Source: Aureitalea marina
GTDB taxonomy: Bacteria; Bacteroidota; Bacteroidia; Flavobacteriales; Flavobacteriaceae
DNA length: 64,000 nucleotides
Reading direction: 5' to 3'
NCBI RefSeq assembly: GCF_002943755.1
Contig: NZ_MQUB01000001.1
Coordinates: 1,910,501 to 1,974,500, forward strand
Both the position numbers and the translations under genes were made by a program. Below are positions 10,652-39,336 of the stretch, in pieces. The stretch's first letter is position 1. Each line of letters opens with the position of its first letter. Below the pieces are notes generated by a model. The model saw only the letters and a program-made list of their open reading frames with translations, was not told where the DNA came from and ran no database searches.

Positions 10652-11944
10652 ATGAAAACAGCCATCTATTGGTTCAGGAATGACCTGAGAGTAGTTGACA
10701 ACCACCTCCTGAAGCAGGCAACCGAAGAGAACGATCAAATTATTGGCGTTTACATACTGGAGGATCGCCTTCTGAGCTTAGATCGTTATGGTTTTGCTAA
10801 AACTGGGCCATTTAGACTTCAATTTCTCCTGCAGAGCTTACAAGAGCTTAAATCTGCCTTACTGGATCTCAATATCCCTTTGATTGTACTGAGAGGGAGC
10901 GGGGTATCAGAAATGAAATCGCTCATATCTAACAACGAGGTCACAAGTATTTACAACCAACTGGAATGGACTTCTGAAGAGGTTGACACGGAAACCAAAC
11001 TGAGAAATTCAATTAGCGCCTCTGTTCGATGGATCCAATCATACGATCAATTCTTGCTCCATCCCTCGGATCTACCCTTTTCACCAGACCGTACTCCGAG
11101 GGGATTCACTTCCTTCCGAAAAAAGATCGAGAACCGGGTAGATGTTCGTCCCGTGGAAGTTCCGAGCCCCATGAAATCGACACCAGAGATTGAGGCCGAT
11201 GGGATACCCGTGTTGGAGGAATTAATTCAGGACAAAATCACGACGGACGATCGATCTGCTTTCCCATTCAGAGGAGGCCAGACTCAAGCGCTTGATAGAT
11301 TGAGATCCTATATCTGGGAAACTAAAAAAGTTCGGTATTACAAAAAGACCAGAAATGGGCTAGTGGGAACAGATTACAGCAGCAAGTTCTCTCCCTGGTT
11401 GGCAAATGGAAGTCTATCTGCAAGATCGATCTACTGGGAGGTCAGGAAATTTGAAAAAATTCACGGATCTAACGAATCCACCTATTGGCTAATCTTTGAA
11501 TTGATCTGGAGAGATTTTTTCAAATATGTCTCCCTAAAACATCAAAATAAGATCTTCAAGACTGGAGGTATACTCGAGAGGGAGTACTCCTGGTCGCGTG
11601 ACAGAGACAAAATCGAACAGTGGATCAAGGGAGAGACCCCAGAGCCATTTGTCAATGCCAATATGATCGAATTGGCACGAACCGGATGGATGAGTAATCG
11701 GGGCAGGCAGAATGTAGCCTCCTATTTTAGCAAGGACATGGGCTTAGACTGGCGTATAGGAGCAGCCTATTTTGAATCCATGCTGATCGATTATGACGTG
11801 CACAGCAACTATGGGAACTGGATGTATGTTGCTGGGGTGGGTAATGATCCTCGGGATCGAAAATTCAATGTGGCATCTCAGGCAGAACGCTACGACCCGA
11901 ACGGTCGTTTTCAGCGAATCTGGCTCCAAACCACCTTGTTTTGA
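10652..11944 (+). CDS. Cryptochrome-DASH / photolyase family flavoprotein
   Basis: This is a blue-light FAD protein of the cryptochrome-DASH clade; characterised members repair cyclobutane pyrimidine dimers, preferably in single-stranded DNA. The N-terminal antenna domain starts with YWFRNDLRVVDNH. The C-terminal FAD domain carries the DASH signature: ARTGWMSNRGRQNVASYF, then DWRIGAAYFE, DYDVHSNYGNWMY and GNDPRDRKFN. At 430 aa it matches bacterial family members. It starts at ATG 10652, 1 nt after the DUF2256 gene, and its TGA overlaps the next start as TTGA, suggesting coupled translation. The substrate cannot be fixed from sequence alone. Confidence 0.94.
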   Translation: MKTAIYWFRNDLRVVDNHLLKQATEENDQIIGVYILEDRLLSLDRYGFAKTGPFRLQFLLQSLQELKSALLDLNIPLIVLRGSGVSEMKSLISNNEVTSIYNQLEWTSEEVDTETKLRNSISASVRWIQSYDQFLLHPSDLPFSPDRTPRGFTSFRKKIENRVDVRPVEVPSPMKSTPEIEADGIPVLEELIQDKITTDDRSAFPFRGGQTQALDRLRSYIWETKKVRYYKKTRNGLVGTDYSSKFSPWLANGSLSARSIYWEVRKFEKIHGSNESTYWLIFELIWRDFFKYVSLKHQNKIFKTGGILEREYSWSRDRDKIEQWIKGETPEPFVNANMIELARTGWMSNRGRQNVASYFSKDMGLDWRIGAAYFESMLIDYDVHSNYGNWMYVAGVGNDPRDRKFNVASQAERYDPNGRFQRIWLQTTLF

Positions 11945-13479
11945 CAAAAACGCTTAGACTCATACTGGGAGATCAACTAAATAGTTGTCACAGTTGGTTC
12001 CAACAAGTGAACCCTGATGTGACGTATGTTATGATCGAATCCCACCAAGAGCAAGAATACGTCACTCACCATATCCAAAAAATAGTTGGCTTTGTCCTGG
12101 CCATGCGGTCGTTCGGACAAACGCTTACTAATAGAGGACACCAGTTGATCTACATGAGGCTAGACGACCCTCAGAATCGCTCGAGCTTAACAGATACGAT
12201 TAACAGTTTAATCGAGGCGGGTGGATTTGAACGTTTTGAGTACTTACTGCCAGACGAATATCGACTGGACCTCCAACTAATAAATTTTTGCCAGTCCTTG
12301 AAGATAGCAACAGGGTTTCGGGACACGGAACACTTCTACACCCAGAGGGACGAAATGGCCCTGTTTTTTGAAGGCAAAAGTCAATACCTGATGGAGAGCT
12401 TTTACCGATACATGCGGAAAAAGCACGGGGTACTGATGCTTAACGATACCAAACCCATTGCAGGACAATGGAATTTTGACAAGGACAACAGAAACAAGTG
12501 GAAAGGCCAGCCAGCCATACCAGAGTTACCTGATCTGAGGAAACCCGTCGCCCAGCTGATCACTATGATCAATGAACAGGGAATTAAGACCATTGGTGCC
12601 ATAGACCCGGAAGATTTCAATTGGCCTACTAACCGAGCTGAAGGACTAGAACTCTTAGAGTATTTCTGCAACTACCTCCTCCCCCATTTTGGCACCTACC
12701 AAGATGCTATGCACACTGACCAACCTTTTCTTTTTCACAGCCGGCTATCCTTTGCTTTAAACCTAAAGATCCTCAGCCCCAAGGAGGTTGTAGACAGGGT
12801 GATCGACCATTGGGCCGATAGGAAAGAAGATATCGATCTGGCCCAAGTGGAAGGTTTTGTCCGACAAATCATTGGCTGGCGCGAATACATTCGCGGAATG
12901 TATTGGCTACAAATGCCGGACTATGAACGCAAAAACTTCTTTAAGAACGATAATCCCTTGCCCCAGTTCTATTGGAGCGGAGAGACCAAGATGAATTGCA
13001 TGAAACATGCCATTTCCCAGAGTCTGGACTTGGGCTACGCACACCACATTCAACGTCTGATGGTCACAGGAAACTTTGCCTTGCTAAGCGGAGTTAGTCC
13101 AGAAAAGATCGACGCCTGGTATTTAGGTATTTATACAGACGCTATCCAGTGGGTGCAATTACCTAATACAAGAGGGATGAGTCAATTTGCTGATGGAGGT
13201 TTACTGGCGACCAAACCCTATGTAAGCAGCGGGAGCTATATCAATAAAATGAGTAACTATTGCCAAGGTTGTGCGTATAACGTAAAGACCAAGGTAGAAA
13301 AGGATTCCTGCCCATTTAACTCTATGTATTGGAATTTCCTCTATCAACACAGAGACAAATTGGCCAATAACCGCAGAATGTCCATGATGTACAGACAGCT
13401 GGACAAAATGGATGGACAAGTTTTAACTCAAATGGTCCTAAGAGCACAAGACATAATTGAAAATCCGGATGCTTACTGA
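11941..13479 (+). CDS. FeS-type bacterial cryptochrome / (6-4) photolyase (PhrB-like)
   Basis: This 512-aa protein belongs to the photolyase-related family that binds FAD plus a 4Fe-4S cluster; Agrobacterium PhrB repairs (6-4) photoproducts. The N-terminus ([10 protein letters not shown]) is the typical DPRP domain start. The FAD domain includes [14 protein letters not shown] and [15 protein letters not shown]. Four cysteines at about residues 353, 441, 444 and 457 (in [16 protein letters not shown] and DSCPFN) have the same spacing as the four cluster ligands I recall for PhrB (350, 438, 441, 454). The start is TTG 11941, overlapping the upstream TGA. No ATG close by would preserve the N-terminal strand. 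Confidence 0.92.
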
Positions 13480-14950
13480 AAAAAGCGACATAAGCATCAT
13501 GTGGTTCAAGCGCGATCTGCGATTGGAGGATAATCCAGCTTTGGATCAGGCGTTGAAATCAACTAATCCGGTCTTGCTCTTATACTGCTATGAGCCAAGT
13601 TTGATGGAAGACGCTCACTACTCTGACCGTCACTGGAACTTCATTAGACAATCCCTGGAAGAATTACAGGAAGACTTGCAAGGAGTAAATAGCCAAGTGC
13701 TAGTTGTGCGTTCTGAACTAATCCCATTACTGTCCAAGCTACAGCAATTCTGGAACATCAAAGTCCTGTATTCCCACCAGGAGACCGGATTAAAAGTAAC
13801 TTACGAGCGAGACAAACAAGTTGCCCGTTTTTGCAAGAACAACCTGATAAAGTGGACCGAAGTGGTCAATAATGGTGTCTTCAGAGGAAGAAAAGACCGG
13901 TCCAACTGGAAGAATGACTGGTTGGCCTTTATGAAATCTCCGGTTTTGAGATTTAATGCTAGTTCAGAGCAATTTATTCCAACCGTAGATATACAAGAAG
14001 CAAGTACATTCTTTGATAGTTTTAGTCCTAAACCAGCAATAGGTAAGTTCCAGCCCGGTGGAAGAAGCAAAGGTCTAATCTACCTGCAGACTTTTTTACA
14101 GTCGAGGTATCCTGACTACAATAAGAACATTTCTAGTCCGGCTTTGGCTCGCATCAGTTGCAGCCGGCTTTCTCCCTACCTGGCTTGGGGCAACTTATCC
14201 GTGCGGGAGGTATGGCAAGCTGCAAAAGCGCATCGAAAACAGGCACCCGCTAAAAGGGCTTTGGACGCATTCACCAGCAGATTGAGATGGCAGGCACACT
14301 TTATTCAGAAGTTCGAAATGGAGGATACCATGGAATTTGCCAGCGTAAACAAGGGCTACAGAAAACTCAAAAAAAGTATTGCCCAGGATTATCAAAAAGC
14401 CTGGAGAACTGGAATGACTGGTTTTCCATTGATCGATGCCTGCATGCGCTGCCTTCAATCTACCGGTTATCTGAATTTTAGAATGCGAGCCTTGGTGGTC
14501 TCCTTTTTCACCCATACACTGTGGCAGCCCTGGCAGGACGCAACGACTCACTTGAGTCAAGTATTCCTGGATTTTGAACCGGGAATCCATTTCCCGCAAT
14601 TGCAAATGCAGGCCGGGGAAACTGGAATCAACACCATCAGGATCTACAACCCGGTCAAAAACAGCAAGGACCACGACCCAAAGGGAGATTTTATCTGCAA
14701 ATGGGTACCCGAATTGAGAAACGTCCCGGACGAATTTATCCACGAACCATGGACCATGACTCCCATGGAAGAGCAGTTCAACAATTTTACACTTGGGATC
14801 GACTATCCCAAACCCATCGTTGATCTGCCTGCCAGGCGTAAAATAGCCTCTCAAGAACTATGGCGGATGAAAAAGGACCCGGAGGTCCGGGCCGAAAGTA
14901 AACGAATCCTGCGTCGACACACCTTGCAGGACAGAAATCCATTTGATTGA
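13469..14950 (+). CDS. Photolyase/cryptochrome family protein with atypical FAD-site segment
   Basis: This is a 493-aa member of the photolyase/cryptochrome superfamily. The antenna domain opens with [17 protein letters not shown]. The FAD domain has [15 protein letters not shown] and [18 protein letters not shown]. The segment that in class I CPD photolyases reads like DGDLAANNGGWQW is replaced here, near residues 365-385, by [18 protein letters not shown], followed by the familiar IYNP and [10 protein letters not shown]. It therefore belongs to a divergent clade whose chemistry I cannot assign. I chose ATG 13469, 11 nt inside the previous gene; a TTG at 13457 is an alternative. Its TGA overlaps the next ATG by 1 nt. 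Confidence 0.88.
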
Positions 14951-15661: not shown

Positions 15662-15744
15662 TAGTCGGTAGTCGGTAGTCGGTAGTCGGTAGTCGGTAGT
15701 CGGTAGTCGGTAGTCGGTAGTCGGTAGTCGGTAGTCGGTAGTCG
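15662..15744. repeat. Tandem 7-bp repeat, unit TAGTCGG, about 12 copies
   Basis: The heptamer TAGTCGG is repeated without interruption for 83 bp. It starts 6 nt after the DUF2452 stop codon and is non-coding on the plus strand. On the minus strand, because 21 nt equals seven codons, it gives a spurious TTDYRLP peptide repeat. Uninterrupted short repeats of this kind are prone to copy-number change. Confidence 0.97.
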
Positions 15745-15914
15745 AAGTTAAAGTCGATTCACGAATAACCATTAACGAATCACGATTTCTACCTTGGGGG
15801 CCCCTAAACCCCGTCCGGGGGTAAATTAGATCAATCCAGATAAAGCTCCTAATTATTGCTTCGGCAGTTTACTGAATTCTTGAATGGGGATACTGGATTA
15901 CTCACTACGTTCGT
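15745..15914. other. Gene-free stretch with hairpin-prone sequence
   Basis: No supportable gene lies here. A G/C-rich palindromic stretch near 15795-15825 alternates GGGGGCCCC and CCCCG...CGGGGG. A GGATTAC...GTGATCC hairpin lies at 15895-15919, the first member of the dispersed hairpin family found around the tRNA genes. Confidence 0.6.
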
Positions 15915-16131
15915 GATCCAGACTAAACCCTCTTCTGAAATTACAAACCCGATCCACTTTGCGGATCACTGGTTATTTTTTAAAGTCACCACACAAGCGA
16001 ATTGAAGTTTATAGGATTATTCCCGCAGGTCATGATCCAGATCAAACCCGCTCCTGCAAATACCAAAACCCCAATCCGTTTTACGGATTGAGGCTTTTCT
16101 TTTTGGAAAAACATCAACATGCGAGCATGAG
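15915..16131. repeat. 217-bp direct repeat, copy A
   Basis: Copy A of a block repeated at 16158-16374 with a constant offset of 243 bp and no indel. It contains a GATCC-type hairpin, the element GGATTATTCC...TCATGATCC, a terminator-like hairpin AATCCG-TTTT-CGGATT (about 16070-16093), and ends at CATGCGAGCATGAG. It is non-coding. Confidence 0.93.
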
Positions 16132-16157
16132 CAAAGAAGATTATTCCCTTCGCTCAT

Positions 16158-16374
16158 GATCCAGACTAAACCCTCTTCTGAAAATACAAACCCGATCCAC
16201 TTTGCGGATCACTGGTTATTTTTTAAAGTCACCACTCAAGCGAATTGAAGTTTATAGGATTATTCCCGCAGGTCATGATCCAGATCAAACCCGCTCCTGC
16301 AAATACCAAAACCCCAATCCGTAAAACGGATTGGGGCTTTTCTTTTTGGAAAAACATCAACATGCGAGCATGAG
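16158..16374. repeat. 217-bp direct repeat, copy B
   Basis: Copy B of the block at 15915-16131, differing at only a few positions. One difference is the terminator-like hairpin loop, AAAA here against TTTT in copy A, around 16312-16338. Unlike copy A, it continues into a complete long hairpin (16341-16390) and the tRNA-Val terminator. Copy A is therefore probably the duplicated, truncated one. Confidence 0.93.
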
Positions 16375-16390
16375 TGTTTTCCCAAAAAGA
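16341..16390 (-). repeat. Long tRNA-linked hairpin, copy B
   Basis: The left arm 16341-16356 and right arm 16375-16390 pair at 15 of 16 positions around an inner CATG-CGAG-CATG. It abuts the terminator of tRNA-Val(GAC) on its 3' side. A second hairpin with different arm sequence but the same inner loop sits at 16830-16881, in the same position behind tRNA-Val(UAC). Confidence 0.85.
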
Positions 16391-16417
16391 AAACCCGCAA
16401 CTTTCGTTGCGGGTTTT
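16390..16417 (-). terminator. Terminator of tRNA-Val(GAC)
   Basis: AAAACCCGCAAC (16390-16401) and GTTGCGGGTTTT (16406-16417) form a perfect 12-bp stem with a 4-nt loop, 11 nt downstream of the tRNA on the minus strand. A/T runs on both sides make it usable in both directions. Confidence 0.85.
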
Positions 16418-16428
16418 GTGTTTGATGT

Positions 16429-16502
16429 GGGTCATACTGGATTCGAACCAGTGACTTCTACCCTGTCAAGGTAACACTCTGAACCAACTGAGTTAATGAC
16501 CC
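16429..16502 (-). tRNA. tRNA-Val (anticodon GAC)
   Basis: This is a 74-nt cloverleaf on the minus strand. The acceptor arms GGGTCAT and ATGACCC pair, D-stem ACTC pairs with GAGT, the anticodon stem TTACC pairs with GGTAG (one G-T) around the loop TTGACAG, and the T-arm is ACTGG-TTCGAAT-CCAGT. The anticodon GAC reads valine GUC. CCA is not encoded. Confidence 0.95.
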
Positions 16503-16618
16503 GAGGGACGGCAAATATAGTCAATATAGACTTAATTGAACCGAGGTATTTTTGCTTTTTACGTTATTTCAAAGCTCTAAACGGGAGAGTATTTCAAGGA
16601 AAGAATAATCCGAAAAGA

Positions 16619-16649
16619 TCAGGGATTACTCCCTCCGGTCGTGATCCCG
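16619..16649. repeat. 31-bp hairpin repeat, copy 1
   Basis: An identical 31-bp sequence occurs at 16746-16776, 127 bp downstream. Its ends GGGAT and ATCCC are inverted, so it can fold. It is related to the GGATTA...TGATCC elements at 15895, 16016, 16139 and 16257. Confidence 0.88.
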
Positions 16650-16745
16650 GACCGAGCGTCTTCGCAGAAGAATCAATGTCCGGTGGACATTGGTTAGCGA
16701 GGGGCCAGCGTTGAGGGGCGGGCAGAGAAAGCCGATTGCGGTTGG

Positions 16746-16776
16746 TCAGGGATTACTCCCTCCGGTCGTGATCCCG
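16746..16776. repeat. 31-bp hairpin repeat, copy 2
   Basis: Identical to 16619-16649. Both copies lie in the gap between the two tRNA-Val genes, which otherwise holds no gene. Confidence 0.88.
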
Positions 16777-16829
16777 AAGCGACCACTACTGCAAATGAAA
16801 AAACCGATCTGCTTCGCAGATCATGGTTG

Positions 16830-16881
16830 TTTTTATCAGAAAAACACCAACATGCGAGCATGAGTGTTTTTCTAATAAAAA
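16830..16881 (-). repeat. Long tRNA-linked hairpin, copy C
   Basis: The left arm 16830-16846 and right arm 16865-16881 pair at 16 of 17 positions around the same CATG-CGAG-CATG centre as the hairpin at 16341-16390. The outer arm sequences differ between the two copies, yet pairing is kept in both. Confidence 0.85.
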
Positions 16882-16909
16882 AACCACATCGTTTCCGATG
16901 TGGTTTTTT
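16878..16909 (-). terminator. Terminator of tRNA-Val(UAC)
   Basis: AAAAAACCACATC (16878-16890) and GATGTGGTTTTTT (16897-16909) form a perfect 13-bp stem with a 6-nt loop, 10 nt behind the tRNA on the minus strand. Confidence 0.85.
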
Positions 16910-16919
16910 CGTTTGATGT

Positions 16920-16993
16920 GGGCGCGAAGGGATTCGAACCCCTGACCCCTTGGGTGTAAACCAAGTGCTCTGAACCAACTGAGCTACGCGCCC
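16920..16993 (-). tRNA. tRNA-Val (anticodon UAC)
   Basis: This is a 74-nt cloverleaf on the minus strand. The acceptor GGGCGCG pairs with CGCGCCC, the D-arm is GCTC/GAGC, the anticodon stem CTTGG pairs with CCAAG around the loop TTTACAC, and the T-arm is AGGGG-TTCGAAT-CCCTT with one G-T pair. The anticodon UAC reads valine GUA. It lies downstream of folC on the same strand. Confidence 0.96.
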
Positions 16994-38655: not shown

Positions 38656-39336
38656 ATGAATTTAAGACGTACAATCATGACAACCGTAAAACATTTCGTC
38701 CTCGCGATCACTTTACTTGCAGGAACAACTTTATCCGCGAACAACGATCCAGTTGTTAAAGACAAAACATCAACAAGCTGCGAGGAATTTAATAAGTGCC
38801 AGAAAAAAACAGATTGTCTGGTGGGTGCATTAGCGCAAACCGACACAACGCATGAGGAGATAGGAGATTTCGGATATGTTGATATTGAGGAAATGGAATT
38901 GCTGAATCAGGAAATGGAAGCGCTAGGGTTTGAAAAGGCAGGCTCAGACGATCAGGAGATAGGCGATTTCGGGTATGTCGATTTTGAGGAATCGGAATTG
39001 CTAAGAGAGGAAATGGTAGCTCTGGGATTTGAAAAGGAATACTCAGAAAACGAAGAGATCGGCGACTTCGGATATGTCGATTTTGAGGAATCGGTATTGC
39101 TAAGAGAGGAAATGGTAGCTCTAGGTTTCGAAGAGGTAGATTCAGAAAACGAAGAGATAGGCGATTTCGGGTATGTCGATTTTGAGGAATCGGAATTGCT
39201 AAGAGAGGAAATGGTAGCTCTGGGATTTGAAGAGGTAGATTCAGACAATGAGGAGATAGACGATTTCGGTTTTGTTGATTTTGAGGAAATGGAATTGTTG
39301 AGGGACGAAATGAAAGCTTTAGGGATTGAATTATAA
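38656..39336 (+). CDS. Exported acidic protein with five 33-residue repeats
   Basis: The 226-aa product has a signal peptide (TTVKHFVLAITLLAGTTLSA; starts at residue 1 or at M8, 38677) and a short Cys-containing segment (SCEEFNKCQKKTDC). Five tandem repeats follow from residue 68, with unit features EIGDFGYVDFEESELLREEM and VALGFEEVDSENE. Repeats 2-4 are almost identical, also at DNA level (99-bp period); the last is shorter. The repeats are strongly acidic. No family is recognised. It sits between lysS and a decayed lysS 3' end, suggesting insertion next to a duplication. Function unknown. Confidence 0.82.
   Translation: MNLRRTIMTTVKHFVLAITLLAGTTLSANNDPVVKDKTSTSCEEFNKCQKKTDCLVGALAQTDTTHEEIGDFGYVDIEEMELLNQEMEALGFEKAGSDDQEIGDFGYVDFEESELLREEMVALGFEKEYSENEEIGDFGYVDFEESVLLREEMVALGFEEVDSENEEIGDFGYVDFEESELLREEMVALGFEEVDSDNEEIDDFGFVDFEEMELLRDEMKALGIEL
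38857..39333 (+). repeat. In-frame tandem repeat, 99-bp unit, about 4.8 copies
   Basis: Five units start at 38857 and recur every 99 bp within the acidic repeat gene. The unit begins GA(G/A)AT(A/C)GGCGA and keeps the reading frame. The middle copies are nearly identical in nucleotide sequence, indicating recent expansion or gene conversion. Confidence 0.92.

Follow-up and report, generated by a model that had tools for sequence, protein, structure and literature searches.

REP and BIME sequences are palindromic repeats associated with RAYT (Y1) transposases, and REP elements carry a conserved tetranucleotide at the foot of the hairpin. Rickettsia palindromic elements are likewise palindromic repeats, in this case without a gene. 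Integrative islands found in tRNA and tmRNA 3' ends use tyrosine integrases, and Ssn is a family of site-specific single-strand nucleases (GIY-YIG, Neisseria).

We analysed a stretch of 64,000 nt, G000:C1:1910501-1974500, from the genome of Aureitalea marina, a member of the Flavobacteriaceae (hereafter the window), in which two tRNA-Val genes are each followed by a long hairpin, designated H. Like REP and BIME, the H elements are short, non-coding and gene-less palindromes that occur in many copies and keep their structure; they differ from both in their association with tRNA/tmRNA 3' ends, for the most part in a single orientation, and in the presence of an inverted copy of the host flank. 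They also differ from the REP elements that go with a RAYT, since their genome gave no match to the Y1 transposase family (PF01797; 0 matches, with 5 of 14 control genomes positive). Their likeness to Rickettsia palindromic elements, drawn from the description of the latter only, lies in being palindromic repeats devoid of a gene. With integrative islands, one of which was seen at a tRNA-Ser gene of this genome, they share the targeting and re-making of the tRNA/tmRNA 3' end, but the units measure about 130-250 nt, and no ORF of integrase size lies between the two tRNA-Val genes. Intrinsic terminators find a counterpart in T1, a hairpin located between tRNA and H, and also in H itself 3' of tRNA-Arg in relatives, where it is accompanied by a T-run; unlike such terminators, the H of the window lack a T-run, have a conserved apex and belong to a multi-arm palindrome.

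Only the two tRNAs reach the gathering cut-off of any Rfam 15 family in the window, and among sub-threshold matches (E up to 5) the lowest E-value is 0.0021, for rox1. No description of the element was found in the titles and abstract beginnings of open-licence literature, which is no proof of its being unpublished, and the Ssn nuclease family was not found in this same part of the literature. Given that no Rfam family beyond tRNA, no Y1 transposase and no literature match was obtained, we regard the element as a variant of the gene-less palindromic repeats. Our preferred reading, to which we assign a probability of roughly one half, is that tRNA/tmRNA 3' ends in Flavobacteriaceae are colonised by a non-autonomous palindromic element, in which we saw no gene, and that each hairpin forms the centre of such an element.

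Organization of the two tRNA-Val loci

The original prediction placed a tRNA, a terminator and a long hairpin in this order at both tRNA-Val genes, and the sequence, the inverted repeats and the folds agree with it. It did not include a broken third copy of the hairpin, the larger palindrome to which each H belongs, or the similar anatomy found at other tRNAs of the genome, where the centre sequences are different. The features identified are the following.

16918..16993, minus strand: tRNA-Val(tac), host of the first element (ARAGORN; Rfam tRNA, 72.9 bits)
16878..16909, minus strand: T1, terminator-like hairpin directly 3' of tRNA-Val(tac) (sequence, inverted repeat, fold)
16830..16881, minus strand: H of the tac locus, the long hairpin originally noticed (inverted repeat; fold z -7.9)
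16806..16822, minus strand: T2 of the tac locus, second hairpin, with a 7-bp stem and a 3-nt loop (sequence, fold)
16792..16916, minus strand: whole cloverleaf of the tac locus (inverted repeat; z -9.6 as RNA, -9.6 as DNA)
16749..16775, minus strand: T-arm-like palindrome of the tac locus, GGGATCAC...TAATCCC on the tRNA strand (sequence, direct repeat, GGATCA..TAATCC motif)
16649..16723, minus strand: core of the tac locus, with the ATGTCCNNNGGACAT palindrome at 16676-16690 (common to other tRNA loci)
16622..16648, minus strand: second copy of the T-arm-like palindrome, past the core of the tac locus (direct repeat)
16427..16502, minus strand: tRNA-Val(gac), host of the second element (ARAGORN; Rfam tRNA)
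16390..16417, minus strand: T1 of the gac locus, terminator-like hairpin (inverted repeat, fold)
16341..16390, minus strand: H of the gac locus, also originally noticed (fold z -5.3)
16308..16340, minus strand: T2 of the gac locus, with a 3-nt loop (inverted repeat, fold)
16296..16425, minus strand: whole palindromic unit of the gac locus (z -9.5 as RNA, -9.6 as DNA)
16257..16281, minus strand: T-arm-like palindrome of the gac locus, GGATCATGACC...AATAATCC (sequence, motif)
15896..16131, no strand assigned: tandem duplicate of 16139-16374 (95% of 236 nt, spacing 243)

The tRNA strand presents, in succession, the tRNA, a flank F, T1, H, T2, F' (the inverted F) and the T-arm-like palindrome, followed 3' of tRNA-Val(tac) by the core and the second T-arm-like palindrome. 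At the tac locus F pairs with F' over 14 nt at 93% (16902-16915 with 16792-16805), so that the unit forms a cloverleaf whose outer stem encloses three arms, namely the apex of T1, H and T2. The outer stem of the gac unit is weak, and its fold leaves the three arms largely side by side. The H of the tac locus has a CTCG loop on the tRNA strand and an inner stem with two unpaired bases on the 3' side. The palindrome of the tac core has the form ATGTCC...GGACAT, and the one at 16749..16775 resembles, by eye, an inverted tRNA T-arm with a substituted loop. Inspection by eye also revealed a T-run at T1 on the tRNA strand, and none 3' of H at the window loci. The truncated third H lies around 16118-16129, inside the 243-nt tandem duplication, and its arms are unpaired. 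Between 15657 and 17055 there is a single ORF of at least 90 aa, which has 94 aa and overlaps a tRNA, and no ORF of integrase size separates the two tRNAs.

The H at 16830-16881 folds with -22.1 kcal/mol and that at 16341-16390 with -20.6 kcal/mol, none of 200 shuffles being as good in either case, as compared with 30 of 200 for the broken third copy (z -1.1). Both H constitute the middle of a palindrome of ~125-130 nt, with the stronger z-scores given above for the whole units. Chance, or the presence of two unrelated terminators, is ruled out by the fold z-scores together with the genome-wide recurrence described below.

The predicted shared centre, CATGCGAGCATG, is indeed present at both hairpins and in the broken copy, i.e. 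three times in the window versus 0.36 expected with one mismatch allowed, and these three occurrences, all within the Val locus, are the only ones in the whole genome. An extended 19-nt centre yielded two matches only in 148 other genomes of the family, with 2 mismatches each and at loci without a tRNA (L005, L006). Since CATGCGAGCATG is private to the Val locus, it is useless as a probe.

Three further features of the window were observed. A perfect 7-nt tandem repeat (TAGTCGG, 11.9 copies; 15662-15744) adjoins the element array, a 99-nt tandem repeat of 4.8 copies, with a unit that is a multiple of three, lies at 38854-39327, possibly within a coding region, and three adjacent ORFs at 10652-14950 look photolyase/cryptochrome-like by eye.

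The same layout behind other tRNA genes and the tmRNA

Of 38 tRNA matches in the genome, 31 terminal, readable ends were used, the seven others either running into masked stretches (3) or having another tRNA next to them (4). The tallies of layouts at these 31 ends (19 and 5) and of the H apex (18/20) come from reading sequences and folds by eye. H with most of the layout was found behind the tmRNA and behind 19 of the 31 tRNA genes: Phe, Met (179354), Arg-tcg, Arg-acg, Leu-cag, Leu-gag, Lys, His, Arg-tct, Pro-tgg, Met (1370630), Pro-ggg, Tyr, both Val, Leu-taa, Leu-caa, Ala and Arg-cct. Behind the tmRNA stand H, T2, the T-arm-like palindrome, the core and, in direct orientation, a short repeat of the tmRNA 3' end. 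A sister form without H, in which the core is combined with tRNA 3' ends repeated in direct orientation, occupies five ends (Leu-tag, two Gln, Met 2508986 and Asn), and neither form was found 3' of the last seven of the 31 (Ser-tga, Trp, Thr, Glu, Ser-gga, Cys and Asp).

The recurrent order is host 3' end, T1, H with a CTYG apex, T2, inverted host flank and disrupted T-arm, some loci having in addition the core and a repeat of the host 3' end in direct orientation. The apex is CTYG in 18 of the 20 loci (19 tRNAs and the tmRNA), the other two having CTGG and TTTA, and the T2 loop comprises 3 nt in 14, 4 nt in 4 and is ambiguous in 2. The parts are variable, as Tyr has no separate T1 and Leu-caa is followed by a single long hairpin, and the H arms are too unequal in length for sequence-based alignment. 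Four H centres stand in tandem behind tRNA-His with a spacing of 133 nt. The ATGTCCNNNGGACAT palindrome has 13 sites in the genome, 12 of them within about 1 kb 3' of a tRNA (hand comparison); the site at 2051476 is the exception.

Copies of the host 3' end in inverted and direct orientation

The reverse complement of each tRNA end plus 24 nt was scored against all loci (31 ends). The inverted flank copy tracks its host: the own locus scored best in 16 of 31 cases, 15 of which fall within the 19 H loci, and the mean score was 20.6 at the own locus versus 13.7 at other loci, while the direct-orientation control placed the own locus first in 3/31. A shuffle version applied to the tRNA ends of relatives, a test that is insensitive, retained 4 of 83 at p<0.01.

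In direct orientation, a copy of the host 3' end accompanies 6 of 32 genes, including Leu-gag, where the copy is simply the next tRNA gene; Leu-tag, the two Gln genes, Met and Asn have up to 3 copies each. Comparison of a gene with another locus gave direct copies in 6 of 992 pairs, all of them neighbours or the twin Gln locus, the two Gln genes having near-identical starts of their downstream sequence. This direct copy, a trait of the GIY-YIG cassettes described below, is seen at five tRNA genes elsewhere in the genome and was not found within 1.4 kb of the two tRNA-Val genes when 3 errors were allowed.

An element that holds an inverted copy of its host's own flank could also be a mutational by-product, in which fold-back copying and template-switch correction of terminator palindromes make or perfect inverted duplications without selection or mobility. 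The long A/T arms, the copy that lost its pairing and the re-made tRNA arm in GIY-YIG cassettes of relatives, where stems by eye are likewise changed and still pairing, are all compatible with such a process, which however predicts neither a single apex class (CTYG in 18/20) nor a near-constant strand orientation, nor T-arm and core motifs that are similar across genera. We consider this origin unlikely.

Distribution in Flavobacteriaceae and in the phylum

Of 397 Flavobacteriaceae genomes, 115 contain CAAGCTYGCTTGA, which is the commonest centre of the present genome; the reversed control of this pattern is non-zero in 13 rows among the matches listed (hand count). The present genome was the sole representative of its genus among those compared, and the folC-like gene neighbouring the Val loci has relatives mostly in Flavobacteriaceae, with up to 56% identity. 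We read 90 loci, 30 from the search (one being from this genome) and 60 hand-picked among the matches listed, with some genomes represented twice; 89 were usable, and one match was retained per locus, the nearest to a sense tRNA where present.

The proposed link to tRNA ends is supported by these loci and extends to the tmRNA: 64 of 89 are preceded on the same strand, at no more than 400 nt, by a tRNA (58) or a tmRNA (6), 58 of the 64 have their host within 60 nt, the median distance from the tRNA is 29 nt, and 44 are at tRNA-Arg. All 97 matches of the 90 loci comprise 67 sense and 1 antisense to a nearby tRNA/tmRNA. This sole antisense match behind a tRNA belongs to a locus whose two matches lie on opposite strands at a distance of 162 nt (L366; G279:C82:21295-22695), and this single case leaves the odds of the various readings unchanged.

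The chief rival explanation bears directly on these figures. It holds that T1-H-T2 is a host RNA feature, i.e. a part of the tRNA/tmRNA transcript acting as a special terminator or as a 3'-trailer fold with an insulating or processing role. The near-fixed sense polarity, the short distance from the tRNA and the prevalent CTYG apex would all be expected, CUYG being a known RNA tetraloop motif, and the case is strongest at tRNA-Arg of relatives, where in many genomes H itself is by eye terminator-like, with an A-run/T-run at its base, and thus also fits a host function. In the window, T1 already stands between the tRNA and an H that is devoid of a T-run on the tRNA strand; moreover, termination requires neither tandem arrays nor direct tRNA 3'-end copies nor a core, and the T-arm-like motif is present 3' of tRNA-Val in 8 of 80 folC loci only. 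A host role of this kind is possible, and we would rate it at little more than one chance in four. Taken together, the CTYG apex and a polarity that hardly varies suggest the reading of one strand, as RNA or as single-strand DNA.

The T-arm-like motif was recovered at 36 of 290 distinct tRNA ends versus 0 for the reversed motif, the 36 corresponding to 32 distinct elements (4 are counted from two neighbouring tRNAs) in a set that includes ends picked by the centre pattern. The likeness of its copies (18 distinct) is only marginally greater within genomes than across them (0.255 vs 0.300; 57/2000 permutations), which does not discriminate. By eye, the layout exists 3' of part of the tRNAs in Altibacter lentus, Flavobacterium sp. 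WG47 and Lutimonas saemankumensis, and the presence of H elements is patchy between genomes. This patchiness, the tandem arrays, the order of parts seen at locus after locus and the copies of the host end, both inverted (host-specific) and direct, all fit the palindromic element that we favour.

In a sample of the phylum, 83 of 395 genomes matched the centre. Among the loci read, 1 of 17 outside Flavobacteriaceae lies behind a tRNA (L334), as compared with 7 of 9 new ones inside the family; the centre alone is therefore weak evidence outside Flavobacteriaceae. The exception, from another family of the class, shows around position 1500 a large palindrome with a CAAGCTTGCTTGA centre 3' of tRNA-Lys, followed by a piece resembling a tRNA 3' end.

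Pairing is kept while the arm sequence changes

As the search relied on the 13-nt centre only, the arms outside this centre provide an independent test of pairing; the search itself sets the inner four pairs, and relatedness is left in by the pairing shuffles. Across 30 loci, one per genome (29 relatives and this genome), 178 of 240 outer-arm cells are paired versus 115.8 (sd 7.4) after re-dealing, with none of 5000 re-dealings as high and 22 distinct 5-nt arms. The claim that pairing persists despite changed arm sequence thus holds well past the two copies on which it was based. The covariation check that had been suggested points the same way: in the 26 distinct rows, cells with two-sided changes amount to 66 versus 29.2 by shuffling, and the covariation score is 0.443 versus 0.161. 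Sliding the partner by one column lowered pairing from 81% to 40-47%. Counted as pairs with a two-sided change, there is no excess (8 vs 7.7 in shuffles; 344/500).

In the larger set of loci, 228 of 312 cells are paired at 39 distinct loci near a tRNA (150.5 by shuffling, sd 7.4), but only 77 of 152 at 19 distinct loci away from one (64.1, sd 6.0). Copies with unpaired arms at random sites had been named as the observation that would count against the prediction; one broken copy exists in the window, and the loci away from tRNAs, taken as a set, pair only slightly above shuffles. Eight of 25 loci without a nearby predicted tRNA still have at least 7 of their 8 positions paired, and some of the loci lacking a predicted tRNA resemble decayed tRNA ends by eye. 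Stem cells with G.T versus A.C, compared as a test for RNA on the tRNA strand, number 8 and 4, respectively, which does not discriminate.

The original prediction had offered selection on the structure or a mobile hairpin targeting tRNA ends. Its pairing and tRNA-end components are supported; movement of the hairpin is a step that we infer from the tRNA association, and we saw no two strains of which one had a filled and the other an empty tRNA end. The two alternatives are not mutually exclusive, and the present data separate neither from the other.

A possible mode of spread

If the hairpins are the centres of palindromic elements, a nuclease or polymerase may act at the T-loop or 3' end of the host gene, after which copying or repair would duplicate the host 3' end in inverted as well as direct orientation and leave the tRNA whole. 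The machinery would recognise a folded single strand, with the result that structure would be kept while sequence drifts. More tentatively, as somewhat under one chance in three, the H elements might represent a new protein-less class, a tRNA/tmRNA 3'-end parasite with site-specific copies of the host end, always inverted and sometimes also direct, around a cloverleaf-like single-strand fold and a strand-specific CTYG apex, spreading from tRNA to tRNA by means of a trans-acting enzyme that reads shape over sequence. Should the preferred reading be true, many free-standing tRNA genes would carry a structured 3' parasite or accessory that is absent from Rfam and has relatives across the family, an enzyme recognising a folded strand at tRNA ends would be predicted, and the loci would offer a clean system for studying the origin and upkeep of palindromes and the way in which tRNA ends turn into integration hot spots.

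GIY-YIG cassettes and the tRNA-Ser island

A GIY-YIG nuclease is one candidate for the helper enzyme. In the folC locus of a Flavobacteriaceae MAG (L055, 5783-6466), tRNA-Val(tac) is followed by a tandem pair of GIY-YIG genes of 82 aa each; the re-made tRNA 3' parts that come next show, by eye, an anticodon stem that is altered and still pairing. Similar cassettes exist in L060 and L069, and at an Altibacter tRNA-Leu a hairpin splits the re-made T-arm. The L055-type protein has matches in 100 of 149 genomes of the family (this genome not counted), and the present genome gave no match at the same threshold. A tRNA lies no more than 400 nt upstream in 15 of 30 GIY-YIG loci, and a tRNA 3'-end copy was found downstream in 14, both being present in the nine best-scoring ones; one of the 30 (L313) gave no re-match. 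Cassettes were also observed 3' of tRNA genes in L292-L300, some in tandem, followed by a re-made tRNA 3' part. A mirror arrangement was noticed in L315 (1130-2120), where three GIY-YIG genes are found upstream of tRNA-Pro, each after a partial copy of the tRNA-Pro 5' part.

These cassettes (L055, L060, L069, L229, L292-L300) and the H elements have a common niche and geometry: tRNA, terminator, cassette and re-made tRNA 3' part with an altered pairing stem, in tandem at some loci. They differ in that the cassettes carry an ORF, and the motifs are hardly shared, H, core and T-arm motifs being missing from 33 of 34 GIY-YIG loci, with one loose core match. A GIY-YIG helper draws no support from shared motifs. 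The near absence weakens the possibility that the H elements are decayed remnants of homing-type GIY-YIG cassettes inserting into tRNA 3' parts: Flavobacteriaceae cassettes directly 3' of tRNAs do re-make the tRNA 3' end, but they hardly share the motifs, and none of the five PF01541 matches in this genome has a tRNA in its ~3-kb locus or lies in the window. We regard this derivation as highly improbable.

An H array that by eye fits tRNA-Ser (G000:C1:837347-837431) is located about 21 kb away from it (L015). The interval between this tRNA and the array (L324; G000:C1:815800-835500) contains a Phage_integrase gene, a C5 methylase, PD-(D/E)XK and Mrr-type genes, and Druantia-like genes with a DruE-like helicase (1541.8 bits) and a weak DruF match (53.8 bits). 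An island with this Druantia-like set may have entered at tRNA-Ser and displaced the H array.
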